Positions 95-18,714 of a stretch of DNA of 29,604 nt are shown here, one piece after another (position 1 is the first letter of the stretch; every line of letters starts with the position of its first letter). The DNA comes from a virus. The notes beneath the pieces were generated by a model that was not told the DNA's origin, made no database searches, and saw only the letters and a list, made by a program, of their open reading frames with translations. Location: positions 1 to 29,604 of the IMG/VR virus record IMGVR_UViG_3300035211_000065; one strand, given 5' to 3'. The translations under genes were made by a program, and so were the position numbers.

Positions 95-396
95 ATTAAA
101 TACCTAAAATCTAATAATTTTTGAAAAGTATCTTTTACTTGATGATTATTCAAATCATATTTTTTATACAATTTAAAATTATACTTTTTAAATGTATTAT
201 TATCCATTATAATCTTGTCACCATCGTTAAATATTAATTCAAAGCAGTTACTACTTAATTGATTTATTTGCAATAAAATGCGATGTTGGTTTATTATATC
301 TCTTTCAGTTATTTTAATAGAATTAGGTCTATATGGTTCTAATATAAAACATAATGCCACTAAAAATAAACCTATTATAAAAGTTTGTTTTATCAT
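91..396 (-). CDS. Small membrane-anchored protein of unknown function (101 aa)
   Basis: The protein starts MIKQTFIIGLFLVALCFILEP, one hydrophobic N-terminal segment of about 16 residues after a lysine: a signal anchor or uncleaved signal. The remaining 80 residues are polar and lysine-rich. I chose the ATG at 396 over the one at 423. It forms a TAATG overlap with the TAA of the ThyA-family gene and has TTTGGAG six bases upstream, whereas the 423 start would overlap that gene by 28 bases. Its own TGA overlaps the next ATG (ATGA). I recognise no family. Its position suggests co-expression with the nucleotide-modification gene, but a role cannot be inferred. Confidence 0.7.
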   Translation of the reverse strand: MIKQTFIIGLFLVALCFILEPYRPNSIKITERDIINQHRILLQINQLSSNCFELIFNDGDKIIMDNNTFKKYNFKLYKKYDLNNHQVKDTFQKLLDFRYLI

Positions 397-1400
397 TAAT
401 TCTCCAAATTTCTTTTCTGCCATTCTGCAAATAAAGGATTATCAAATTCTTTAGATTCTATTTCTATCCATTTTGTAGCACAACCTTTTATTAAATCTTT
501 AAATGTTGGATTAAAACCAAGGATAGACTTAACAGAAAACCCAGCTTTTCGTACATCGTTTTCTACTTGTAAAGACTTTTGTACCATTGTATTTAATGGC
601 AAATAGTGTTCATTATTTTCTAATATACAATGGTCACCAATATTTGGATAACTGGCTTCATATTTGTTTAATATTTTTTGTGCTTTTTCAAAGTTTCTTT
701 CGTATAAATGCATACTACCAACTTGATGGATATATGTACCAAGCTGCAAATTCAGTTCTTCTGCAATTATTCTTTGTAAAGTTGTAAAACAAAAAACATC
801 ATAAGGTAAACCAAGCCAAGCGTCATTGCTTCGCATATCAGTTATACAATAAAGTTTATCATTACGAATATAAAATTTTAAAGACAATGTGCAAGGTAAA
901 TCTTTATGACTACCTGCAATAGCATGTATAATATCCCCACTATCCCACATTGTAATTATTGCTTGACGAGTATTTGGTTTTTCTTTTAATAGATGTATAA
1001 GAGCTTCTAATTGATTTTGACCGTTTGGATGGAACATTGCTTCATTTTCATTTTTAAAGCCAGCATTATTTTTCCATCTATGACCATATGCTCCATACGC
1101 TTTTCCATTTTCAGCGAAGTTTTCATAAGAAGGAGCATAAGCTTTTATCATACTTATATCATCCGTCATAGAAAGATACCACAATAATTCAGCACAAGCA
1201 TATGATAAACTAAATTTCCTATCTGGATACCCAATTAAAATATTGTTTAATGGATTTAATAAAATAGCTTGAAAACCAAGTATTTCTTTTGTTTTACCAG
1301 ACCTACTATTTAATTCTTCACCACTATGTATGATATTTAATAAAGTATCATACCATAAATCATTTAAATTATTATAATCATTTTGTATTGTTGGTATCAT
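396..1400 (-). CDS. Thymidylate synthase superfamily enzyme, probable dCMP 5-hydroxymethylase (334 aa)
   Basis: Members transfer a one-carbon group from methylenetetrahydrofolate to C5 of dUMP (ThyA) or dCMP (T4 gp42). Visible motifs are the nucleophile in DLPC at Cys170, the phosphate-binding MRSND (Arg190-Asp193), GLPYD (197-201), and VGSMHLYERNF with His231 and Tyr233. In thymidylate synthases the residue eight after the RSxD aspartate is the uracil-reading Asn (N177 in E. coli, N229 in L. casei). Here it is Asp201, as in T4 dCMP hydroxymethylase (Asp179). The VGSxHxYxRxF string also resembles gp42 more than ThyA (gDxHlYxNH). I therefore infer a cytidylate-directed enzyme. The ATG at 1400 has AAGGA at good spacing and follows structured element E1. 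Some phage ThyA-like proteins with this Asp are untested, so a dUMP methylase cannot be excluded. Confidence 0.85.
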   Translation of the reverse strand: MIPTIQNDYNNLNDLWYDTLLNIIHSGEELNSRSGKTKEILGFQAILLNPLNNILIGYPDRKFSLSYACAELLWYLSMTDDISMIKAYAPSYENFAENGKAYGAYGHRWKNNAGFKNENEAMFHPNGQNQLEALIHLLKEKPNTRQAIITMWDSGDIIHAIAGSHKDLPCTLSLKFYIRNDKLYCITDMRSNDAWLGLPYDVFCFTTLQRIIAEELNLQLGTYIHQVGSMHLYERNFEKAQKILNKYEASYPNIGDHCILENNEHYLPLNTMVQKSLQVENDVRKAGFSVKSILGFNPTFKDLIKGCATKWIEIESKEFDNPLFAEWQKRNLEN

Positions 1401-2707: not shown

Positions 2708-3247
2708 TCAATTTACTGGCCAAATATAAGGCAAGTCATTTGGAACTTGCCAATTAAATTTTGAATAGTGTTCTGGCATTTTTCTTAACAAATTTGATTT
2801 ATGACTATCATGAAATTCTTTATTGCCAAACCAAGGAGGATAAAATATTTTTTCTTTAGCTGCAATTAAATCCCATCTTGGAAAATTCCCCCATACATTG
2901 CTGTATAAACACATTGGCATATTATTAGTATGTTTTTGTTTCCAAAGATAAATGCATTCATTATAATAGTATGTTAAACAATCTTCGTATCCTCGCCACA
3001 TTTTTGTACAAGGATGATTATACCATGGAGTAGATTTAATTCCATCACCACTATCTAAAGGTTTAAACCAAAGTAATTTTTTGTATTCTTTACCAGCTTC
3101 ATTCCAACCCCAAATAAAAGCAATTTTTTGGCCTTGATTATTTGCTTTTAATATTTGTAATGCTTCTACTCTTTGTTTGCCTAATCTTTTCCAATCTAAG
3201 CACCAAATAGATAATCCAATATCAGCATAGGGTAAAAATGTTTGCAT
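2708..3247 (-). CDS. Probable pyrimidine-dimer DNA glycosylase-like protein (179 aa)
   Basis: The N-terminus MQTFLPYADI...CLDWKRLGKQRVEALQIL and the later NHPCTKMWRGYEDCLTYYY match my memory of a phage and bacterial family usually annotated as T4 endonuclease V-like (Pyr_excise), whose members read MQTFLPYxDF..LDxxRLGKQRVE and HPAVRMWRGYE. T4 DenV cleaves the glycosyl bond at UV photodimers and nicks the abasic site. The gene follows DNA ligase with a TAATG overlap, which suits a repair pair. I see no strict counterpart of the DenV N-terminal threonine nucleophile, so catalytic activity is an inference from family membership only. Confidence 0.6.
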   Translation of the reverse strand: MQTFLPYADIGLSIWCLDWKRLGKQRVEALQILKANNQGQKIAFIWGWNEAGKEYKKLLWFKPLDSGDGIKSTPWYNHPCTKMWRGYEDCLTYYYNECIYLWKQKHTNNMPMCLYSNVWGNFPRWDLIAAKEKIFYPPWFGNKEFHDSHKSNLLRKMPEHYSKFNWQVPNDLPYIWPVN

Positions 3248-4116
3248 TATTCAAACTGCTCCATTGTACATTGTTTAGGGTCTTTATCATTTCGCCAAAT
3301 AATATTATCATTTCTATCTTTAGCCATTCTTGGGAATTTTAATTTACCATTAGCAGCAATACTATCATAAGCTATAACACAAACTTTTCCAATTAGTTTA
3401 TCCCGTTTTTCTTGTGTATCTAAATATTGGCGGTATTCTAAATCAAAGCCAGAACCAACTTGACCAAAGTCATGTATTTTTCCATCTTTATCATAAACGG
3501 CAATATGAATAGCTTGTAAACCACCATAATGAGTAGAACTAAAAGAACGATGAGTACCAATTACAAAAGCATCAAAAGTTTTAACTGGTTTTAATTTATA
3601 CCAGTTTTTCATATGTTCTTCTTTTAGTACCCAACCCTCCCATTTATTTGATACAGCTAATTCTAACATCGTAGCTTGTCCAGTTTCATCTACGAAACCT
3701 TTTGGAATATAGGTTGGGGGAGCTATACTAAGGCCAATCTTTTTTAGATTAAATAAAATATTATCTAAATCACCATTGCAAAAATTTTTGTTATTCCATA
3801 AAGGAACAGCGAAAAACGTAAGTTGTAGTCTTTTATCAGCATTGTTTAATAAAGTTGGGACGCTCGTTGCTGGGACGCCGGGACAATGTAATTCAGCAAA
3901 AGCAATACTATTTTTAGGCATATTTAAAATTTCTTTTCGTATATGCTTTATTTTTAATAATTTTTCTGTTATATTTTTATTGTTTTTAGTATAACAATAA
4001 ATATCTGGGTAATTAGTAGTATTAATCTTAGTCAAATGACCATCGAGTTTAGGTTGGAACCAATTAACTTTTTGGCCATTATAATTTTTAAATTTTGGAA
4101 ATTCTATTGTTTGCAT
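3247..4116 (-). CDS. ATP-dependent DNA ligase (289 aa)
   Basis: Seals nicks in duplex DNA through an adenylated lysine. Motif I is QPKLDG, with Lys23 as nucleophile. Motif III is AFAELHCPG with Glu75. Motif IV is EGWVLK at 160-165. Motif V is WYKLKPVKTFDA with lysines 174 and 176. The C-terminal part (GQVGSGF to RMAKDRND) fits an OB-fold domain. At 289 residues it is a minimal phage ligase, a little shorter than the T7 enzyme. It overlaps the 55-residue zinc gene upstream by 13 bases and ends in a TAATG overlap with the glycosylase-like gene. It probably serves Okazaki-fragment joining and repair. Confidence 0.92.
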   Translation of the reverse strand: MQTIEFPKFKNYNGQKVNWFQPKLDGHLTKINTTNYPDIYCYTKNNKNITEKLLKIKHIRKEILNMPKNSIAFAELHCPGVPATSVPTLLNNADKRLQLTFFAVPLWNNKNFCNGDLDNILFNLKKIGLSIAPPTYIPKGFVDETGQATMLELAVSNKWEGWVLKEEHMKNWYKLKPVKTFDAFVIGTHRSFSSTHYGGLQAIHIAVYDKDGKIHDFGQVGSGFDLEYRQYLDTQEKRDKLIGKVCVIAYDSIAANGKLKFPRMAKDRNDNIIWRNDKDPKQCTMEQFE

Positions 4117-6396: not shown

Positions 6397-6464
6397 ACTA
6401 TATTTATATAGTATATATTAAAAAATTAACTATATAAATATAGTTAACGTATATAGTTAACGTA
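6397..6464. repeat. AT-rich inverted repeat and 13-nt tandem duplication at the polymerase 3' end
   Basis: ACTATATTTATATAGT (6397-6412) and its exact reverse complement (6429-6444) form a 16-bp stem with a 16-nt loop. The unit TATAGTTAACGTA is repeated twice in tandem (6439-6451, 6452-6464), covering the polymerase stop codon. Between this and the 6130 start, the stretch holds only R1, the 13-nt repeat and promoter Pb. Confidence 0.6.
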
Positions 6465-8472
6465 TTTTGCCAGCTATAAATTTACCATCAGCGGTTTTTA
6501 TTACTTTATCGCCAGCAGCTTCAGCCCAATTGTTAGGGCTTATACCCAAGCCTGTTAAAATAGGTACTTTGAAATTTATCGTAGTTGTTTCTAACATATT
6601 ACAAATATAATTATGGAGTTTTGATTCATACAAAACTTCTAATGGAACACGACTTAATAATTCGTCATGTACATTTGCTGCTAATTTAATGCCCCATTTT
6701 TTAGATTCACTATTAAATCTTGGTGAAATTGCAACCATTCTTTCTTTCATAATATCAGCAGCACAACTTTGTATTATAGAATTAAAAGCTTTTCTTGCAA
6801 CTCTTCCGGGTAGATATCTTCTACGACCATAAGCATTAAAAACAAAACCACGAACAGCAGCCGTATTTTTAGCAGCGTCTGAAGTTGTTTTTATTTCTGG
6901 AAATCTATCGTGATATTTGTTCCAACAATATTCAGCATGATTTCTACAAAGTTCTACAAGTTTTTCTTTTCTTAAATTATTTTCTAATTTATTACTCGCA
7001 ATCAATTCCGCAACTTTAGCTGTCATCATTTCAATTATATGGTCATTAGACATTAATTGTGCAGTAACACCATTCTTTCCTTGCCCATAAGCCATACCAA
7101 AATTAAGTTGTTTAGCAGGTTTTCTTATTATTTGTATTAAATCAGCGACCCATTGATGGTAATCTGTTTCTGGATTTTCGTTATATGCTTTTATAGCTTC
7201 TTCTATTTTTGCATAATGCACAATTAGTCGATATTCAATTTGTGAATAATCATTAGAAATAAACCCTTCGCCTTCAAAAGGATGTAATAATACTTTTGAA
7301 TCTTCATTTTGTTGTTGTGAATTTGGTTTACTACTGGATAACCTACCAGTACGAACGGCTTGATTATAGTTTGGATGTATTATGCCATCTACATTGAGTT
7401 CTAAAAAAGTATCTAAATATAAACTTTTAAACTGTTGTTTTATTCTGTATTCGCATATTAAATTTACTATTTCTTTTATTTTAGGATCACTAACAACTAG
7501 TGGATGATTTCTATATAAAGCCATTGCATCTTTATCAAAACTTGGACGACCAGTATCATAATATCTTCCATCTTTCTTTTCTGATATAGTTTTTAAAATC
7601 GGTAAATTTAATTGATTTATAAAAATATCATATATGCAATTATTCGAATTTATAAATTCACGCCCAGTTAAATCTGCTATCCTAGTAGCATTATCTATCA
7701 TTATTCGCAAAGCTTTTAAAGATGCTTTTTTGCATTCGATTTCATCTACTCTTAAGCCATCTTTTTCTATATCGAATAGAACAGAAGTTAAATTTATTTC
7801 AGTTTCTACTAATCTTTTGACAGCTTCCGCCTGTTCTATTTTTTTAGTTTCTGCGATTCTAGCTTCTAATTTTGACTGCAAGAATCTGTATAATTCACGA
7901 TTCATACCAATATCATCATTAGCATATTCACCTAGAATATCTATGGGCACATCGGCGTAAGATTTTGATTTTATACTTTTTAAATAAGCTGCAACCCTAT
8001 CTTTTGCACTAACATCATAGTCCAGCCAATCTTTACATACAGGTTTTAAGCCATAGCCTATTCTATCACTATAATATAATTTACATTGTGTTAATGTATC
8101 AATTAATCTGCACTTAAATTCTACATTATCACCTACTGCAAACATTAAAGCATCAAATTTAATATTATGATTTATCCAATCCTTGCAAGATTGTAGAATA
8201 TCTTGTATCCAATTCATAACATTGGATACTGGTAAATTGTTAGAATTAGGAGCAGTATGTCGAATTGGTATATACCAGCGTTCTCTTATATCATCAGCGG
8301 TTATACTAAATCCGCAGATTCTATCACCTTTCCATGGATATAAACCACCTAAATCTTTATGCTGAAATACTCTTTTAGATTCTATATCGCAAAATATTTC
8401 TTTACGATTTTTTAAATTAGGCAATTCAGATAAAGATTCAATTATATTTGAATTGTTTGGTAAATGTATCAT
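6457..8472 (-). CDS. Family A DNA polymerase with 3'-5' exonuclease (671 aa)
   Basis: Replicative phage polymerase. Exonuclease motifs: Exo I FCDIES (Asp29, Glu31), Exo II NIKFDALM, Exo III YANDDIGMNREL. Polymerase domain: TGRLSSSKPNSQQQ, motif A SNDYSQIEYR, motif B RKPAKQLNFGMAYG, motif C VHDEL (His602-Glu604). In motif B the position equivalent to E. coli Phe762 is Phe. No 5'-3' exonuclease domain is present, and the length matches T7-like enzymes. The ATG overlaps the methylase stop as TAATG. It is the last gene of the operon starting at promoter Pe and is followed by the AT-rich repeats and R1. Confidence 0.95.
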   Translation of the reverse strand: MIHLPNNSNIIESLSELPNLKNRKEIFCDIESKRVFQHKDLGGLYPWKGDRICGFSITADDIRERWYIPIRHTAPNSNNLPVSNVMNWIQDILQSCKDWINHNIKFDALMFAVGDNVEFKCRLIDTLTQCKLYYSDRIGYGLKPVCKDWLDYDVSAKDRVAAYLKSIKSKSYADVPIDILGEYANDDIGMNRELYRFLQSKLEARIAETKKIEQAEAVKRLVETEINLTSVLFDIEKDGLRVDEIECKKASLKALRIMIDNATRIADLTGREFINSNNCIYDIFINQLNLPILKTISEKKDGRYYDTGRPSFDKDAMALYRNHPLVVSDPKIKEIVNLICEYRIKQQFKSLYLDTFLELNVDGIIHPNYNQAVRTGRLSSSKPNSQQQNEDSKVLLHPFEGEGFISNDYSQIEYRLIVHYAKIEEAIKAYNENPETDYHQWVADLIQIIRKPAKQLNFGMAYGQGKNGVTAQLMSNDHIIEMMTAKVAELIASNKLENNLRKEKLVELCRNHAEYCWNKYHDRFPEIKTTSDAAKNTAAVRGFVFNAYGRRRYLPGRVARKAFNSIIQSCAADIMKERMVAISPRFNSESKKWGIKLAANVHDELLSRVPLEVLYESKLHNYICNMLETTTINFKVPILTGLGISPNNWAEAAGDKVIKTADGKFIAGKIR

Positions 8473-9170
8473 TACTTGTCATTTGTCCAAATAGCTTCAA
8501 TATTCTTGCCAATTGAATGATATTGTCCAATATTTAAATGCAAAAATTCAAAAGGTAACCAATCAGCTAATAAATCTTCACATACTATTATTTGACCTTT
8601 ACGTTCTTTGCACCACTTTCCAAGTTCAGTATAATTTATACTATCACAATTATAATTATATCTAGACCCTATTCCGTTACTATAAGGTGGGTCAATAAAC
8701 CAAGTAGCTTCAATATTATTGGCTAAACTATAATCACCATGAATAATTTTCCAATGCCTTATTTTGTATAAATTATCTGCAATTCTTTTTCTACCATTCC
8801 CATTATTAGCTGACCATCTATTTCTATTTCTATTTCCTATTTTTCTTTTAGCAAAATCATTATTACTTCTAAAACAGCATCCTCGAAAGCTTTCTAAAGA
8901 AATAAGATTTTTTATCGCCTTATTTTCAATATCTATAATTTCATTATATTTATATAGAGGCAGATTGATTATTATATCATAAGTTGCTTTATTTATCAGC
9001 CAATCCCATATATCAAATATAGCTTTATCCTTTTCAATTAATATAACTTGTTTATCCCAATAATGGAACGCATACTGAGCAGAACCGGCGAATGGCTCAA
9101 TTATAATATCATATTTTGGTTTGGGGTAATATTTTACTAATTTAGATTTTGAGCCAAAATAACTAAACAT
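8472..9170 (-). CDS. DNA adenine N6-methyltransferase, D12 (Dam) class (232 aa)
   Basis: Methylates adenine N6 with S-adenosylmethionine. The AdoMet-binding loop is EPFAGSAQYAFHY near residue 30, after the FSYFGSKSKL motif typical of D12 enzymes. The catalytic motif is FIDPPYSNGIG. The start is the ATG at 9170, which gives a TAATG overlap with the deaminase gene. The 15 bases upstream are open only through a TTG. There is no cognate endonuclease nearby, so it is an orphan methylase, probably protecting phage DNA or marking replicated DNA. Recognition sequence cannot be read from the protein. Confidence 0.88.
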   Translation of the reverse strand: MFSYFGSKSKLVKYYPKPKYDIIIEPFAGSAQYAFHYWDKQVILIEKDKAIFDIWDWLINKATYDIIINLPLYKYNEIIDIENKAIKNLISLESFRGCCFRSNNDFAKRKIGNRNRNRWSANNGNGRKRIADNLYKIRHWKIIHGDYSLANNIEATWFIDPPYSNGIGSRYNYNCDSINYTELGKWCKERKGQIIVCEDLLADWLPFEFLHLNIGQYHSIGKNIEAIWTNDK

Positions 9171-9700
9171 TAGATATTCAACCAATCTTTTAAAAGTGTA
9201 ATACCAGTTTCAGGATTTTCAATTAATTCTTTAGTCCAATGAGGCATTGTTCTATCTAGCATAGCCTTTGCGTTTCGGGGGTGCTCAGCCCAATAAGGGG
9301 CTAATATTTCATAAGCTACTGCATCTATAACTCCAGAATCAATTATTATATTAGCACAATTCACACAAGAAGAATACGTTGTTAGTAAAATTGTTTTTAT
9401 TTTATTTTCTTTTTTATTTAGTCTATGTCTGCTTCTAAATAATAAATAATTCATTATAGCTCGTGGCTCTGCATGACTACAACCACAAGCACCTACAATA
9501 TTTTGGCATTCATTTTTATTTCCAGATGGCCCATTTATTGCAAAAGTTTTATTTATTATTTCTAATGTTGTATCAATTTCTATTATAGCACATCCAACAG
9601 CTTTTCTTTTACAAACTTGATTTTTTTCTGCTTGTAATTTTATATCTTTAAAAGTTTGCAATATATTTAATCTTAAAAATTTTATAAATTTTTCGTTCAT
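9170..9700 (-). CDS. dCMP deaminase family protein (176 aa)
   Basis: Deaminates dCMP to dUMP, feeding dTMP synthesis. The zinc/catalytic motif is CSHAEPRA (His-Ala-Glu), and the second motif is YSSCVNCANIIIDSG, where Ser replaces the Pro of the usual PCxxC. The start at 9700 has AGGGG upstream and a TAATG overlap with the kinase gene. The longer frame to 9745 would lie inside that gene. Its presence beside a probable dCMP hydroxymethylase recalls T4, which uses both enzymes. A distinct deaminase substrate, such as a modified nucleotide, cannot be excluded. Confidence 0.87.
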   Translation of the reverse strand: MNEKFIKFLRLNILQTFKDIKLQAEKNQVCKRKAVGCAIIEIDTTLEIINKTFAINGPSGNKNECQNIVGACGCSHAEPRAIMNYLLFRSRHRLNKKENKIKTILLTTYSSCVNCANIIIDSGVIDAVAYEILAPYWAEHPRNAKAMLDRTMPHWTKELIENPETGITLLKDWLNI

Positions 9701-10242
9701 TATATAATGTCCCCTCTTTCTAATGTAAATCTTCTTGATATCCATTCATCTATAATTTCATTTATATTTGAATCATTTACATAGTTGGGATTTTCAAAAT
9801 TTATTGGCAAAACATTAAAAGCAAAATCACAATCACCTTTATTTGCATAATTTTTAAAGAAATTATTACCATCGCACATTGTTTGGACATCTAATAAATT
9901 TCCGCGAGTATCATTTTCTATAAGTGATTTATATTTTTGTTCATCATTAGCATATAATACAACTATAATCCCACCAACACTTCTTATCCAACTATTTATA
10001 ATAGATAAACGCTGAGGCCATATTTTATTTTTATGATAGGCTAATCCACCAAGATGAAATCTATCTTGAACAGCATAAGGATTTAATAATTTTTTATAAT
10101 CCAAAAAGAAATCAAATATCTCTTCATTAGGTCTTGTCATCCAGCTATAAATAGCAAGAAAGCCTTTTTCCGAAAGTCTTCTTACTATAGTCTTAGCTAA
10201 AGTTGTTTTACCTAAACAATCACTGCCTTCTATCAATAACAT
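9700..10242 (-). CDS. Deoxynucleoside monophosphate kinase, thymidylate-kinase-like (180 aa)
   Basis: The P-loop is EGSDCLGKTTLAK at residues 5-17, followed by a helix and the DRFHLGGLAYHK motif near residue 60 that matches the nucleotide-binding DRxxxSxxAY of thymidylate kinases. It phosphorylates a dNMP to the diphosphate. In phages with modified bases this enzyme (T4 gp1 in function) acts on the hydroxymethylated monophosphate. It lies between the MazG-like and deaminase genes in the replication operon. AGGAAAAAAGAA precedes the ATG. Substrate choice is inferred from context only. Confidence 0.75.
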   Translation of the reverse strand: MLLIEGSDCLGKTTLAKTIVRRLSEKGFLAIYSWMTRPNEEIFDFFLDYKKLLNPYAVQDRFHLGGLAYHKNKIWPQRLSIINSWIRSVGGIIVVLYANDEQKYKSLIENDTRGNLLDVQTMCDGNNFFKNYANKGDCDFAFNVLPINFENPNYVNDSNINEIIDEWISRRFTLERGDII

Positions 10243-10270: not shown

Positions 10271-10771
10271 TTAAATTTGATTTTCGTCTTTTAATCTTTT
10301 TCTACCACTTATTAAAATTTCATTAAAATTTGGCGGGCTAAAATTTTCACCTTTATCTCTAAGTCTTGGGTTATTTTTAATATCTCTTGGAGCTTTAGTA
10401 TTATTTGACCTACATACTTCTTGAATTATTTCTTTTGCTGGGAGAATATAATCCACAGCAATCCCATTAACAACATAACATAAATCACCAAAGCCATCAC
10501 AAGTACCATTTAATTCACCTTTGTTTATATGCAGCATCATTTCAGCAGTTTCTTCAAGTATTAAATGAAAACGCCTAAATTTTTTCATAGTATAAATATC
10601 ATTTTTGACACTTCTTGAATAAATATAGCAAAATTTAGAAATAAAAATTATTAATTTACAAAATATAATCATTATAAATTTTGAAAATCTTTTATTAGGT
10701 TTTAAAGGTAAATTGCAAGGTATTTTATGTTTACGGTGAAATTCATAAATTGATTTTTGTGTTTCTATCAT
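10271..10771 (-). CDS. MazG-like nucleotide pyrophosphohydrolase (166 aa)
   Basis: An all-alpha NTP pyrophosphohydrolase that converts a dNTP to dNMP and pyrophosphate. Metal ligands are seen in LILEETAEMM (Glu73, Glu74, Glu77) and CDGFGDLCYVVNGIAVDY (Asp92, Asp96), followed by the family-typical EVCRSNNTK. Residues 26-60 hold an unusual basic and hydrophobic insert (KFIMIIFCKLIIFISKF) before the metal site, which could touch the membrane. The start at 10771 has GGAG eight bases upstream. With a probable dCMP hydroxymethylase in the genome, a dCTPase role like T4 gp56 is possible. Confidence 0.78.
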   Translation of the reverse strand: MIETQKSIYEFHRKHKIPCNLPLKPNKRFSKFIMIIFCKLIIFISKFCYIYSRSVKNDIYTMKKFRRFHLILEETAEMMLHINKGELNGTCDGFGDLCYVVNGIAVDYILPAKEIIQEVCRSNNTKAPRDIKNNPRLRDKGENFSPPNFNEILISGRKRLKDENQI

Positions 10772-10772
10772 A

Positions 10773-12119
10773 TTAAAACTCCGCATCTTCATATATATTA
10801 TTTTGTTCTACTAAACTTCTATCATTTAATAATGATTTTAATAATTTTGTAAATCCCGGTGATTTCATATATGGGAATCCATTTCTAAACAAAGCTCTTT
10901 TACGAACTAAATCTCCAAGTAATTTTTGGGCTTGATCTTGACCAATATCACACCAATCCATTAGGCTATTTCTATCTATATCGTCAGCATGCAATAATTG
11001 TTCAATTAAATCTTTTGGATACTTTGTTTCTTTTAAACGCTTAGTTAAAAAACTTACATCATTATCTCTTAATTCTTTTGAAAATTTATCATCATAAGAA
11101 AACTCTTTATAACCACAAGATTCACTAGAGTATATTTTAGTTAAAAAATTATAAGCATATTGTAGATGTATTTTGCAAACCAATAAATTATTATAATTAT
11201 TTTTTTCAGTATTAAAAGTTAAACCAGCAATAGCAATGGCCATTTTAGTTAGTTTATGTCTCATAGAACCTGAGTCAATTAATGGTATAGTTTCAGTAAA
11301 TTCTTTATATAATTTTTTAGATAATTCCAAACATAATTCTCTAAAACCACTTTCAAATTTTATTTGATCAACAGAACGAGTCCATATCCATAATATTAAT
11401 TTTTTCCAAGCTTCACTAGTGTATTTGGGGTTTTTTACTAAACTATTTTTTATAAATTTATCTCTAAGATCTTCATCCATTTCAGCTTTAGAAACTATCA
11501 TAGCAAAATCTAAACGACGAACATCTTCTAATTGCCCCATTAATTCTTTTATTATTTTAATACCGAAATCATAAGAAGCTACATCTTTCTTGCTACTACG
11601 CGGATTAGAAAGCATTATTAATCTCGTTCTTGCTGGTGTAACTCGACTAACCATACCCATTATTTCAGCTTCTTTTTTAGAACGCATGCTTCTTAAATTT
11701 GCTATAATTTCTTCAGGAGCACCTTTCAGTTCCTCTAATATAACTAATTGCCTATCGTTCAATGGTATAGTCCCCCATTTTATAAACCATTTACCCTTAG
11801 AACCCATAGGTTCTAATCCACCTAATAATCCAGTTCTTTTGGCATTACCACAATCATGAATAACACCCAAATTAAAAAAATTAACTAAACTTTCTGCAAT
11901 TTTTGATTTACCTTGTGAGCTATCCCCAGCAATTAAACAATCTATAATCCCATAGCATATTTCGCCATCTAGATTATAATGCAATGCTGAGCAATAAGCT
12001 ATCAAAAAAGCTAGATGCAAATCTTTTCTCAAAAATATTTTAGTAACATTATTTGATAAATCTTTACAAATATCATCTATCTTTTTTGATAACAATTCAT
12101 ATTTTTCGCTATCAATCAT
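10773..12119 (-). CDS. MCM-like AAA+ replicative helicase core (448 aa)
   Basis: Unwinds DNA at the fork as a ring ATPase. Walker A is GDSSQGKS (65-72), Walker B LVILEEL (125-131), sensor 1 LSNPR (Asn172), and DVRRLDFAMIV (199-209) matches the arginine-finger region RFDLxFxL of MCM proteins. The NLRSMRSKKEAEIMG segment corresponds to the MCM presensor hairpin region. The protein begins only about 60 residues before Walker A, so the OB-fold and zinc N-terminal half of cellular MCMs is absent. It overlaps the primase gene by 8 bases. MCM-type helicases are uncommon in phages, which mostly use DnaB-like enzymes. An archaeal-type AAA+ alternative is possible. Confidence 0.72.
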   Translation of the reverse strand: MIDSEKYELLSKKIDDICKDLSNNVTKIFLRKDLHLAFLIAYCSALHYNLDGEICYGIIDCLIAGDSSQGKSKIAESLVNFFNLGVIHDCGNAKRTGLLGGLEPMGSKGKWFIKWGTIPLNDRQLVILEELKGAPEEIIANLRSMRSKKEAEIMGMVSRVTPARTRLIMLSNPRSSKKDVASYDFGIKIIKELMGQLEDVRRLDFAMIVSKAEMDEDLRDKFIKNSLVKNPKYTSEAWKKLILWIWTRSVDQIKFESGFRELCLELSKKLYKEFTETIPLIDSGSMRHKLTKMAIAIAGLTFNTEKNNYNNLLVCKIHLQYAYNFLTKIYSSESCGYKEFSYDDKFSKELRDNDVSFLTKRLKETKYPKDLIEQLLHADDIDRNSLMDWCDIGQDQAQKLLGDLVRKRALFRNGFPYMKSPGFTKLLKSLLNDRSLVEQNNIYEDAEF

Positions 12120-13704
12120 AGTTGTCTATTTTAAACAAACCTAGTAATTGAAAATCTTCTTGTGTCAAATCAAAAGAAGATAAACTGTCTTCTTTTCTTT
12201 GTATTTTTTCAACTAATAAAACTGATTGACCAAATTTTGGATCAGGATAGTTTCTACAAATACCGATATATGGTATATTTAATTCTAATTGGTCTTCTGT
12301 TAAACCGACTATAAAAGCTGGTTGATTTATATCCGTTTTACTTTGATTTATATTTAAATCAAATACGGAGCTCAATCGCACGTCAGAAACGTCGTAGTAA
12401 GTATCTATAGTTATTTTTGCAGATTTGCATTCAGGTACACCTAAAGCACCTAAAAGAGCATTATGTAATATCTTCTTATTTTGTGAAACACCGATTACCC
12501 CTAAAAATTCTTGATTCTTTGGTTTTAATGTTATTGATACTAGACCAGTTTTATTATCAACTTCTTTTGAATTAACAATACATGAAGAACAAAAACTTGA
12601 ATCTCTAGTGCATGAAATTTTTATATCTTTAGCCACATGATAATTTTCTGTGTCTAACATACTGATAACGAAACTACATTCACATTTCTTGCCAATATTT
12701 TCACTTTTTCTTACTTCAAATAAATCACAAGATACTGGCAGTATATTTTCATCATCTTTATCTTCAAAATAAGGTGGAACATATTTTATCGCCATTTTCA
12801 TAGCAATTGCAAAATCATTTTCTTTAGCATTTTCTTTAGCCACCCAATCATTAACATCACCCTTTGGATATTTGCCTATATCTAAAAAGGTTGCTAAATC
12901 AATTATATATACTGATTGTGCTGTAGTATTTAAATGAGCAGCAAGTCGTCTAGAGCCTTCTCGTCCCCCAGCATCTATATCCATGCAAATAAAAACTATT
13001 TTATTCTTAAATAGTTTATTTAAATTTTTATCCCACGCCCCTTCTGCCCCAGTAAAAGTAGTTGCACCTATATTTGATGGATTTAGAAATCTTTTTGAAA
13101 CTAGCGCTTTTAATTCTCCCCCTAATACCCATATAGTTTCATACTTTAATTGTTCCGGCATATATAATACATTTGTACTATAGCCTGACATATTTTTCAT
13201 TTTATTTGGGCCGGGAGCTCCGGGCAGATATTTTCTTATATTTATTATGTTATTATCTAAATCAAAAATTGGAATCATGATACGTTGTTCACGTATAGAA
13301 TATCCCAATCTTTGTTCTCTTATTTCATCATCTGTTATACCTCTTTTGTATAGCTCTTGTAATAATGGGCCAGAATTCCAAATTGCATTATGCCATTTTT
13401 CAACTCTATCTTGTTTAATTACTTTCTTATCTACTAAGTTTGGATATCTAGTTAATAAATCTGCTATTATAGTTTTTCGTTCTACTTTTAAGATATGAGC
13501 AAATAAAGATATTATATCTCCGGAGGCGTTACATTGAGCAGCATGACATTTCCATAAATTTTTTGTGGTATTTAAAGATAAACTTGGATTGACATCATCA
13601 TGACACGGACAAATACATTTAATCTCATCAGCTCCAGATGGAATTACATCCCAACCTAGTCTGCTCAATTCAACTAAAGCATTTATTTTTGTGATATCAA
13701 TCAT
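12112..13704 (-). CDS. DnaG-like DNA primase with extra C-terminal cysteine domain (530 aa)
   Basis: Makes RNA primers for replication. The CHC2 zinc finger uses Cys32, His35 (CPCHDD), Cys53 and Cys58. The TOPRIM core has GGELKA (Glu197) and CMDIDAGG (Asp242, Asp244). No DnaB-type helicase domain follows. Instead residues ~320-530 form a beta-rich region with a cysteine cluster (Cys341, 343, 365, 372, 375) that might be an OB-fold plus zinc ribbon. The MCM-like core is the next gene, overlapping by 8 bases. The ATG at 13704 has no Shine-Dalgarno sequence: the preceding bases are pyrimidine-rich and end in element E4. Confidence 0.88.
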   Translation of the reverse strand: MIDITKINALVELSRLGWDVIPSGADEIKCICPCHDDVNPSLSLNTTKNLWKCHAAQCNASGDIISLFAHILKVERKTIIADLLTRYPNLVDKKVIKQDRVEKWHNAIWNSGPLLQELYKRGITDDEIREQRLGYSIREQRIMIPIFDLDNNIINIRKYLPGAPGPNKMKNMSGYSTNVLYMPEQLKYETIWVLGGELKALVSKRFLNPSNIGATTFTGAEGAWDKNLNKLFKNKIVFICMDIDAGGREGSRRLAAHLNTTAQSVYIIDLATFLDIGKYPKGDVNDWVAKENAKENDFAIAMKMAIKYVPPYFEDKDDENILPVSCDLFEVRKSENIGKKCECSFVISMLDTENYHVAKDIKISCTRDSSFCSSCIVNSKEVDNKTGLVSITLKPKNQEFLGVIGVSQNKKILHNALLGALGVPECKSAKITIDTYYDVSDVRLSSVFDLNINQSKTDINQPAFIVGLTEDQLELNIPYIGICRNYPDPKFGQSVLLVEKIQRKEDSLSSFDLTQEDFQLLGLFKIDNYD

Positions 13705-15773: not shown

Positions 15774-16406
15774 TTAAACTAAATGCAATAAACTTTCTAT
15801 TTCTTTTTCTGTTTTATTTTTACAAAATTTTTCTATTGTATCTTCAGTCCCACCTGTCCTATCATTAGCAACACAAGCAATTAATTCCCAGCTTTCTTTT
15901 GCTACATCTGTATTACGTATAAAACCAGCTATACGACCATATTGCTTCCACTTAGCACGAAAAATCATAATTGGTATATTATAGTCATCTGCAATATCTT
16001 CAGCAAATTTATCACCGCCAGTCGGGCAGCCGCCACTTACAATTATATCCCCTTGTTTATAAATACTAAAGAATTTATCTTTTACTTTATTAAAATCATT
16101 TTGATTAAATCTACGTCTAGATCCTACAATACCAATAACTTTAGCATTTAATATATCAACATAATTATCACCATGACATGCTTTTGGCTTGCAGCAACCA
16201 AGTTTCTCCCCCCTTAAAAATAATAATGATCTTAGATATTCATCATTATATCTTATATTATATAACATCTCCTTGCGATGCTTTAATATCACTTCCTCTC
16301 TTGTGCCATCAATACCAATACGATATTGATTTTGCCAGCGACCCGGACGCATTATACAAACGTCGTAAGGCTCATTATATACATTTACAACTTGCGTTTT
16401 ATTCAT
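15774..16406 (-). CDS. DUF4326-SLOG fusion protein (210 aa)
   Basis: Two domains are visible. Residues ~1-85 match DUF4326: CIMRPGRWQNQY, GTREEVI, LRGEKLGCCKPKACHGD. Residues ~88-200 match a SLOG/DUF2493-type Rossmann domain: IGIVGSRRRF (92-100), IIVSGGCPTGGDKFAED (121-137), YGRIAGFIRN (156-165). SLOG domains bind nucleotides or nucleotide-derived ligands. Here the glycine-rich GG(C/A)xxGGD loop is intact. DUF4326 carries a conserved Cys/His set that may bind metal. The reaction is unknown; nucleotide processing or sensing is a fair guess. It sits among small genes of the Pf operon and starts by reinitiation after the upstream stop (TAATAATG). Confidence 0.72.
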   Translation of the reverse strand: MNKTQVVNVYNEPYDVCIMRPGRWQNQYRIGIDGTREEVILKHRKEMLYNIRYNDEYLRSLLFLRGEKLGCCKPKACHGDNYVDILNAKVIGIVGSRRRFNQNDFNKVKDKFFSIYKQGDIIVSGGCPTGGDKFAEDIADDYNIPIMIFRAKWKQYGRIAGFIRNTDVAKESWELIACVANDRTGGTEDTIEKFCKNKTEKEIESLLHLV

Positions 16407-18258: not shown

Positions 18259-18287
18259 CCTTTCTATTTACTTTATGCTTTAGTTTA
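18259..18287 (-). repeat. Duplicated leader, copy A
   Basis: CCTTTCTATTTACTTTAT followed, after a 2-base gap, by TTTAGTTTA. The same 18 bases and tail occur at 18723-18752 (3-base gap). On the minus strand each copy covers the stop of one gene and the AAAGG ribosome site of the next. Confidence 0.6.
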
Positions 18288-18714
18288 AAACTGTTCTGTG
18301 GTATAATACTATGCTACCAGCAACAGAAACATTCATGCAATACTCCCCACCTAATTGTATTGTATCATCACATTTATTTAAAATATCTGCAGGAATACCA
18401 TAAGATTCAGCACCCAAAAGATAACAAGCACATTTTGGATGACAAAAATTTTTAAGCATTTTAGCATTATTAATTATTTCTATAGCAATTAAATCACAAT
18501 TATCTGGAAGACATTTTTTAAAACCATCAAAATTTTCATAATAGAATAAAGGCACATGATTAGGGGTTTTCATCGTATCAGAAGATTGTTTCTTATATTT
18601 TCTACCAATAGTAAATATAAATGAAGCCCCTAAAATATTGGCTGTTCTCCATAATGTGCCAATATTTACAGATTTTTGTGGATGGTAAATTCCTATTCCA
18701 AAATAACCTTTCAT
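18280..18714 (-). CDS. SpoU/TrmH-family RNA 2'-O-methyltransferase (144 aa)
   Basis: A knotted SPOUT methyltransferase that methylates ribose 2'-OH in tRNA or rRNA using AdoMet. Motif 1 is VNIGTLWRTANILGA, with the conserved Asn17 and catalytic-type Arg23. Motif 2 is LLGAESYGIPADIL, with Glu103. Motif 3 is MNVSVAGSIVLYH, with Asn128. It has no N-terminal RNA-binding extension, so it is the minimal, TrmL-sized form. It lies between two genes with unrelated folds but shares its leader with the gene below and its MKGY start with the gene above. RNA methyltransferases of this type are rare in phages. The target could be a host tRNA. Confidence 0.82.
   Translation of the reverse strand: MKGYFGIGIYHPQKSVNIGTLWRTANILGASFIFTIGRKYKKQSSDTMKTPNHVPLFYYENFDGFKKCLPDNCDLIAIEIINNAKMLKNFCHPKCACYLLGAESYGIPADILNKCDDTIQLGGEYCMNVSVAGSIVLYHRTVLN

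Follow-up and report, generated by a model that had tools for sequence, protein, structure and literature searches.

We report that a linear viral contig of 29,604 bases (IMG/VR record IMGVR_UViG_3300035211_000065; G+C content, 30%), analyzed over its whole length and called the window below, carries on its minus strand a putative dCMP 5-hydroxymethylase of the MilA type. The best explanation as a whole (probability, about 0.8) is that this enzyme feeds the synthesis of modified-cytosine DNA, with the base likely modified further by an HMUDK_hel-family protein and a TAGT glycosyltransferase. The kind of enzyme is already known; what looks new is its pairing, in the nearest relatives, with TAGT and with HMUDK_hel of a cytosine branch. 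Whether a given restriction enzyme or CRISPR nuclease can cut a phage depends on cytosine modification, which also affects the recovery of phage DNA in sequencing.

The putative hydroxymethylase gene and its relatives

A preliminary description placed a ThyA-family open reading frame (ORF) at 396 to 1400 without giving a strand. That ORF was confirmed on the minus strand; in its frame, the plus strand is full of stops. The product scored 115.9 bits against PF00303 (cut-off, 24.3) and was labeled thymidylate synthase (TS) by family in all databases searched, and none of the NCBIfam thymidylate synthase models reached its own cut-off. As described earlier, Asp201 at the end of GLPYD (residues 197 to 201) lies eight residues past Asp193 at the end of RSND (residues 190 to 193), and the codons of both were checked. 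The gene and its informative residues are as follows.

396-1400, minus: putative dCMP 5-hydroxymethylase (MilA type), 334 aa, ATG start, PF00303, best match MilA
966-968, minus: Arg145 (MilA Lys133), deoxyribose preference; placed by alignment, meaning from the available text of PMC5175136
888-902, minus: Asp167-Leu-Pro-Cys170-Thr171, nucleophile Cys and two class-marking residues; placed by alignment and codons
828-830, minus: Ser191 (MilA Ala176), deoxyribose preference; placed by alignment, meaning from the same text
822-824, minus: Asp193 of RSND
798-800, minus: Asp201, base-choosing residue (T4 Asp179, MilA Asp186, ThyA Asn177); placed by alignments

The best PDB sequence match was MilA, a CMP 5-hydroxymethylase (5jnh; E value, 2.8e-31). 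The best thymidylate synthase, 6auj, ranked lower (2.1e-21), and T4 gp42 was not among the best 60 of 125 PDB sequence matches listed. The preliminary description had proposed a phylogeny and a structure prediction compared with gp42, MilA, and ThyA, and both were run. The model was computed from an alignment (A5) of the window protein with eleven viral relatives and had a mean pLDDT of 86.5. In Foldseek, seven MilA chains ranked first, and VIA-align superposed it on MilA with Z 33.8 and an rmsd of 2.6 over 301 residues (6 to 334), up to the C terminus. Among the matches listed, structures other than MilA reached Z 23.4 at most, and the 5-hydroxy-dCMP synthases 9iqc and 9iqu gave about 23. The predicted architecture is thus that of MilA, including the C-terminal extension, and MilA is the closest in both sequence and fold. 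The likeness to gp42 seen earlier stood at the level of the motif, where VGSMHLYERNF aligns with VGSLHVYSRHF, but gp42 gave way to MilA as the nearest solved relative.

With the window protein alone as the query, no viral relatives were found; with an alignment as the query, 298 were, and the best 80 were kept. The search pattern forced Asp201 in these relatives, but not Asp167 or Thr171. Family searches over contigs covered the best 50 of the 80 loci (L011 to L060), the nine best matches (L011 to L019) being 43 to 67% identical to the window protein. In a tree of 96 ThyA-family rows, made after removal of identical sequences and of ORFs below 190 aa, the window protein falls in a nine-row clade (SH-aLRT, 97) in which all other eight rows carry HMUDK_hel. 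Relatives on actinomycete chromosomes (L147 to L164; Amycolatopsis, Nocardia, Micromonospora, Salinispora, and others) are 30 to 35% identical.

Active-site residues

Residues 167, 171, and 201 were compared across 99 ThyA-family proteins, consisting of the 96 tree rows plus RB69 ORF048c, ZQG1, and PaMx74. Asp201 falls on Asp179 of T4 gp42 and on the Asn of the SP8 enzyme and of ThyA; it is therefore a family feature and not chance, and the earlier assignment of this Asn/Asp position to base choice holds. The window protein has Asp-Thr-Asp, as do MilA and T4 gp42 with eight other phage references (9/9). ThyA has Leu-His-Asn (2/2) and dUMP-type enzymes of SP8 and M6-like phages have Asp-Asn-Asn (13/13). 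RB69 ORF048c, which matches 9iqc at 4.5e-162, has Glu-Thr-Asp with RSQN in place of RSND, and PaMx74 and ZQG1, representing the Xp12 group without Xp12 itself, have Asn-Pro-Asp. Among viral-contig relatives, Asp-Thr-Asp occurs in all 14 of the HMUDK group, all 21 of the C5-methylase group, all 27 far relatives, and 6 of 8 others, the two exceptions having Met or Ala at 171; one Asn-type row (L128) has Ser there. In the available text of PMC8670742, ThyA positions 177 and 147 are the two strongest discriminators between TS of modified contigs and TS of unmodified ones. Together, the three positions predict the product of a phage enzyme as dTMP, 5-hydroxymethyl-dU (5hmdU), 5-hydroxymethylcytosine (5hmC), or 5-hydroxycytosine and, tentatively, 5-methylcytosine (5mC). 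The ThyA Trp80 position was dropped as a class marker, as T4 also has Trp there.

Other catalytic residues of gp42 are likewise present: Cys148, Glu60, Tyr96, and Asp145 correspond to Cys170, Glu71, Tyr105, and Asp167, and Arg123 is kept as Arg145. As far as the available texts of PMC6400193 and PMC5175136 go, T4 Asp179 and MilA Asp186 select cytosine, and T4 Asp145 and Cys148 are required for activity. Two gp42 residues are replaced, Arg124 by Gln146 (a residue common among the relatives) and Ser94 by Gly103; the gp42 S94A mutant retained about 25% activity (PMC6400193, available text).

Gene neighborhood

Read along the minus strand, the gene closes a series of replication and nucleotide genes, in the order listed.

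12112-13704, minus: CHC2 primase-like
10773-12119, minus: MCM-like helicase (short MCM-family P-loop protein)
10271-10792, minus: PRA-PH/MazG-like pyrophosphohydrolase, putative dCTP removal (PF01503, 24.6 bits; cut-off, 21.3; phrog_671)
9700-10242, minus: P-loop kinase, putative hydroxymethyl-dCMP kinase, a weak call (Thymidylate_kin, 19.6 bits; cut-off, 27)
9170-9745, minus: dCMP deaminase (PF00383, 29.1 bits; cut-off, 25)
8472-9185, minus: DNA-methylase-like
6457-8472, minus: family A DNA polymerase (PolA; PF00476, 163.9 bits), conserved in the cassette
3247-4116, minus: ATP-dependent DNA ligase (PF04679, 28.9 bits; cut-off, 27.5)
2708-3247, minus: MSMEG_6728/Pyr_excise family protein, also beside the hydroxymethylase in L011 and L012

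L011 and L012 share the order MCM, MazG, kinase, deaminase, PolA, ligase, Pyr_excise, hydroxymethylase. The zinc site of the deaminase (HAE and CxxC) is conserved in 10/10 rows. The kinase had no match in the PDB, and 9 of 12 of its homologues matched Thymidylate_kin (E up to 0.01). Of the partners named earlier, the deaminase and the MazG-like enzyme were found and the dNMP kinase is weak, its score lying below the cut-off. The set is not particular to T4, since these Pfam domains are found together on modified-cytosine contigs more generally: in the available text of PMC8670742, PF00303 co-occurs there with PF01503 and PF00383, and DNA ligase is among the associated domains.

Several minus-strand features of the window were recorded in passing. 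The succession of the CHC2 primase-like gene and the short MCM-family gene (10773 to 13704) makes an unusual phage replication pair. Small Cys-rich (zinc-ribbon-like) paralogues flank the hydroxymethylase at 1 to 97 (cut by the contig end) and 1502 to 1765. At 15774 to 16406, DUF4326 is fused to a SLOG-like (YAcAr) segment that scores below the cut-off, and a SpoU-family RNA methylase (68.9 bits) lies at 18280 to 18714.

The contig extends 395 bases beyond the hydroxymethylase gene, a space occupied by a 110-aa ORF and the cut start of the Cys-rich paralogue; HMUDK_hel (PF18723) is absent from the 29.6 kb of the window, and a 30-base exact pattern found no contig overlapping the window start. 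In L011 to L019 and L022, HMUDK_hel directly follows the hydroxymethylase (after one ORF in L014) and TAGT (PF20691) comes next, the TAGT of the L022 contig scoring below the curated cut-off. In the four loci scanned, HMUDK_hel scores ranged from 134 to 154 bits. Over the 50 relatives' contigs, HMUDK_hel occurred in 16 and TAGT in 13, each of the 13 also having HMUDK_hel; the nine best-matching relatives had both (9/9). L015 has UDP-glucose-dehydrogenase-like and epimerase-like genes between the two. Given the membership of the window in the nine-row clade and the cassette in its relatives, HMUDK_hel and TAGT are expected, and most likely encoded, just past the contig end. Maps were drawn by phmmer, which partly misplaces the ORFs of G+C-rich records, and M6 and Sonora were taken from annotation.

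A proposed cytosine branch of HMUDK_hel

HMUDK_hel is known from thymidine (5hmdU) hypermodification. Since it could thus have spoken against cytosine, a reverse search was made from HMUDK_hel, which gave 37 loci. Their TS partners fall in two sets, one with Asn201 (18 loci; Asn at 171 in 17 and Ser in one) and one with Asp-Thr-Asp. In a tree of 36 HMUDK_hel proteins (without L024, whose ORF is cut by the locus end, and without ORFs below 220 aa), the 14 with Asp-type partners make up one side of a branch with support of 100/99, the other side holding 20 with Asn-type partners and 2 without an assigned partner type; three of the 14 (L102, L134, and L135) have their partner elsewhere on the contig, beyond the stretch analyzed. 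On this tree, the partner base therefore changed once. A profile of the 5hmdU-type P-loop kinase, built from eight HMUDK_hel records outside the Asp-type set, matched those eight among 16 such records, 3 of the 16 contigs of the Asp type, and none of the ten contigs behind L011 to L019 and L022. In the lineage of the window, TAGT stands beside HMUDK_hel at the place of the kinase in M6.

A model of the L015 HMUDK_hel protein (pLDDT, 92.9) is all-helical. It had no Foldseek match at E values up to 0.001, and a profile search of the PDB found nothing; a further fold comparison placed the PaMx11 5-PmdU glycinyltransferase first (Z 11.8), followed by helix-hairpin-helix glycosylases and a queuine salvage enzyme. 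As the protein is helical, this predicted likeness to the glycinyltransferase and glycosylases is suggestive only.

A literature search that covered subscription papers incompletely listed no paper linking HMUDK_hel (aG/PT-PPlase1) to an enzyme that hydroxymethylates cytosine. Although HMUDK_hel is treated as an indicator of thymidine hypermodification, its members with cytosine hydroxymethylases as partners form a clade of their own; modified cytosine may therefore occur in some phages that are at present called thymidine-modified. Pelagiphages encode TS, aG/PT-PPlase1, and a beta-glucosyl-HMC-alpha-glucosyltransferase, and the pair has been interpreted as thymidine hypermodification (PMC9599517, available text). 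Pelagibacter phages HTVC119P (L091) and HTVC200P (L092) each have a "Thymidylate synthase" with Asp-Thr-Asp beside replication genes and, judged by these residues, may have modified cytosine.

A C5-methylase-like gene in related phages

A C5-cytosine-methylase-like gene was found in 26 of the 50 relatives' contigs, never together with HMUDK_hel; in the loci inspected, it immediately precedes the hydroxymethylase. L020 and L021, which rank between L019 and L022, have it in place of HMUDK_hel. A PF00145 protein with motif IV GNPRC occupies this upstream position in L020, L021 (8671-9999), L023, L031, L041, L042, and L044. Under independence, the chance of such exclusivity would be 1.5e-7, but some of the contigs are near-copies, the HMUDK-bearing hydroxymethylases are compatible with a single clade (p-AU, 0.635), and there are only 1 to 3 independent pairs. 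A reading as many independent events was therefore dropped, and the exclusivity may come from a single evolutionary split.

Hydroxymethylated cytosines would block ordinary C5 methylation. A joint reading, which we put forward tentatively and consider possible but doubtful, is that the cytosine branch of HMUDK_hel acts on 5hmC and that the C5-methyltransferase-like enzyme is a mutually exclusive second step in sister phages. The HMUDK_hel of the window's lineage, taken to have a helix-hairpin-helix, glycosylase fold, would recognize 5hmC in DNA and, alone or with TAGT, add a sugar or other group without a 5hmdU-type kinase; the divergent GNPRC enzyme would act on 5hmC instead of methylating cytosine. 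If this is true, one hydroxymethylase feeds two mutually exclusive second steps.

Proposed pathway and alternative readings

In the favored reading, Cys170 would attack C6 of dCMP, with Asp201 holding and protonating the cytosine and methylene-tetrahydrofolate supplying the one-carbon unit; water, not hydride, would end the reaction and yield 5-hydroxymethyl-dCMP. This product would be phosphorylated by the P-loop kinase and, as hydroxymethyl-dCTP, incorporated by PolA, while the PRA-PH enzyme and dCMP deaminase would draw down the pools of normal dCTP and dCMP. Judged by kinship, an HMUDK_hel-family protein and TAGT would then most likely act on 5hmC in the DNA, leaving a cytosine with a sugar or some other hypermodification that keeps host nucleases from cutting. 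From the residues, predicted fold, gene neighborhood, and kinship, we infer the enzyme activities, the incorporation, the missing genes, and the end product; the preliminary description had likewise taken 5-hydroxymethyl-dCMP to be produced and incorporated. With HMUDK_hel and TAGT beside the gene in the nearest relatives, the final base is probably something other than plain 5hmC, and further decoration would probably hide the viral DNA from bacterial defenses. Counting against this reading are the absence of HMUDK_hel from the window, its otherwise coming from thymidine hypermodification, the equally common Asn-type partners in the HMUDK_hel scan, the kinase score, the replacement of T4 Ser94 and Arg124, and the search pattern that imposed Asp201 on the viral relatives.

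Cytosine specificity would also suit a dCMP methylase, in which hydride ends the reaction to give 5-methyl-dCMP and a genome with 5mC as in the Xp12 group. The ThyA reaction oxidizes tetrahydrofolate, so a dCMP-methylating phage gains from dihydrofolate reductase (DHFR). ZQG1 and PaMx74 likewise have GLPYD, along with a pyrophosphohydrolase-TS-deaminase cluster, and ZQG1 has the order pyrophosphohydrolase, TS, dCMP deaminase, DHFR. In AXL1, gp64 to gp61 cover these four functions; AXL1 is related to Xp12, whose DNA contains 5mC in place of cytosine (PMC9206674, available text). By kinship with Xp12, ZQG1 and PaMx74 would be expected to have 5mC as well. Asp at 177 alone converts ThyA into a dCMP methylase, according to the available text of PMC8670742. 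However, the residues matching Asp167 and Thr171 of the window protein are Asn and Pro in ZQG1 and PaMx74, and DHFR, which adjoins the enzyme in ZQG1 and AXL1, was found in 0 of the 50 relatives' contigs (PF00186). Asp167 and the lack of DHFR in those contigs favor hydroxymethyl transfer, and methylation is unlikely. We regard as quite unlikely a dUMP hydroxymethylase serving thymidine hypermodification through 5hmdU, as in M6, with HMUDK_hel downstream: the enzymes paired with HMUDK_hel in M6-like phages are of the dUMP type and aG/PT-PPlase1 annotations accompany thymidine hypermodification (PMC9599517, available text), but all 13 dUMP-type rows have Asn171 and Asn201 where the window has Thr and Asp, the HMUDK_hel proteins of the two partner sets form separate clades, and the ten near-clade contigs searched lack the 5hmdU-type kinase.

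The remaining alternatives change the product or the substrate. A flavin-dependent 5-hydroxy-dCMP synthase of the AfhB/RB69 kind, giving 5-hydroxycytosine, would share the fold (9iqc and 9iqu) and the Asp; it is very improbable, as MilA scored ten Z units higher and RB69 ORF048c differs at 167 (Glu) and in RSQN from the Asp167 and RSND of the window. MilA itself, the closest solved structure and alike in the C-terminal extension, works on CMP, and relatives sit on actinomycete chromosomes, which would suit a ribonucleotide enzyme of a nucleoside-antibiotic type pathway. Yet Lys133 and Ala176, with which MilA chooses ribose, are Arg145 and Ser191 in the window, as in T4; swapping both reversed the preference of MilA (PMC5175136, available text). 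These residues point to dCMP, not CMP, as the substrate and the gene sits among replication genes, making the CMP reading extremely unlikely. That the gene is an ordinary thymidylate synthase supplying dTMP, as the family name in all databases has it, is scarcely credible given Asp-Thr-Asp where ThyA has Leu-His-Asn and the NCBIfam result. The dCMP-hydroxymethylase reading of the preliminary description is thus borne out by Asp201 with the other active-site residues, by the MilA match, and by the DHFR count.

Comparison with known systems

MilA of Streptomyces rimofaciens (PDB 5jnh, 5b6d, 5b6e, and 5jp9) resembles the window protein in fold, C-terminal extension, and Asp-Thr-Asp, but differs in Lys133 and Ala176 (Arg and Ser in the window) and serves an antibiotic pathway (PMC5175136, available text). 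T4 gp42 shares Glu60, Tyr96, Arg123, Asp145, Cys148, Asp179, and RSND; it differs in its low identity (about 22%), its length (246 aa) without the C-terminal extension, and Ser94 and Arg124. Asp-type hydroxymethylases also lie near annotated glucosyl- or glycosyltransferases in phage G (L003), Lactobacillus phage ATCCB (L005), and Enterococcus phage Planchet (L006).

The MetaGPA TS on modified-cytosine contigs has Asp177, a changed 147, and co-occurrence with PF01503, PF00383, and DNA ligase, as here; the second step given in the available text of PMC8670742 is carbamoylation, whereas relatives of the window have HMUDK_hel and TAGT. The best-covered annotated record of similar layout is Manatee Spring siphovirus ctIqW946 (MW202657), whose "pyrimidine hmase" is 37% identical to the window protein. 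Its layout comprises ligase, SNF2-type helicase, MazG-like enzyme, hydroxymethylase, dCMP deaminase, and PolA, but it has a C5-methylase-like gene and no HMUDK_hel by phmmer. The Pseudomonas phage M6 cluster brings together HMUDK_hel (gp055), a TS-family enzyme (gp058), PolA, and dCMP deaminase; there, the enzyme is of the dUMP type (Asn171 and Asn201), and a P-loop kinase adjoins HMUDK_hel.
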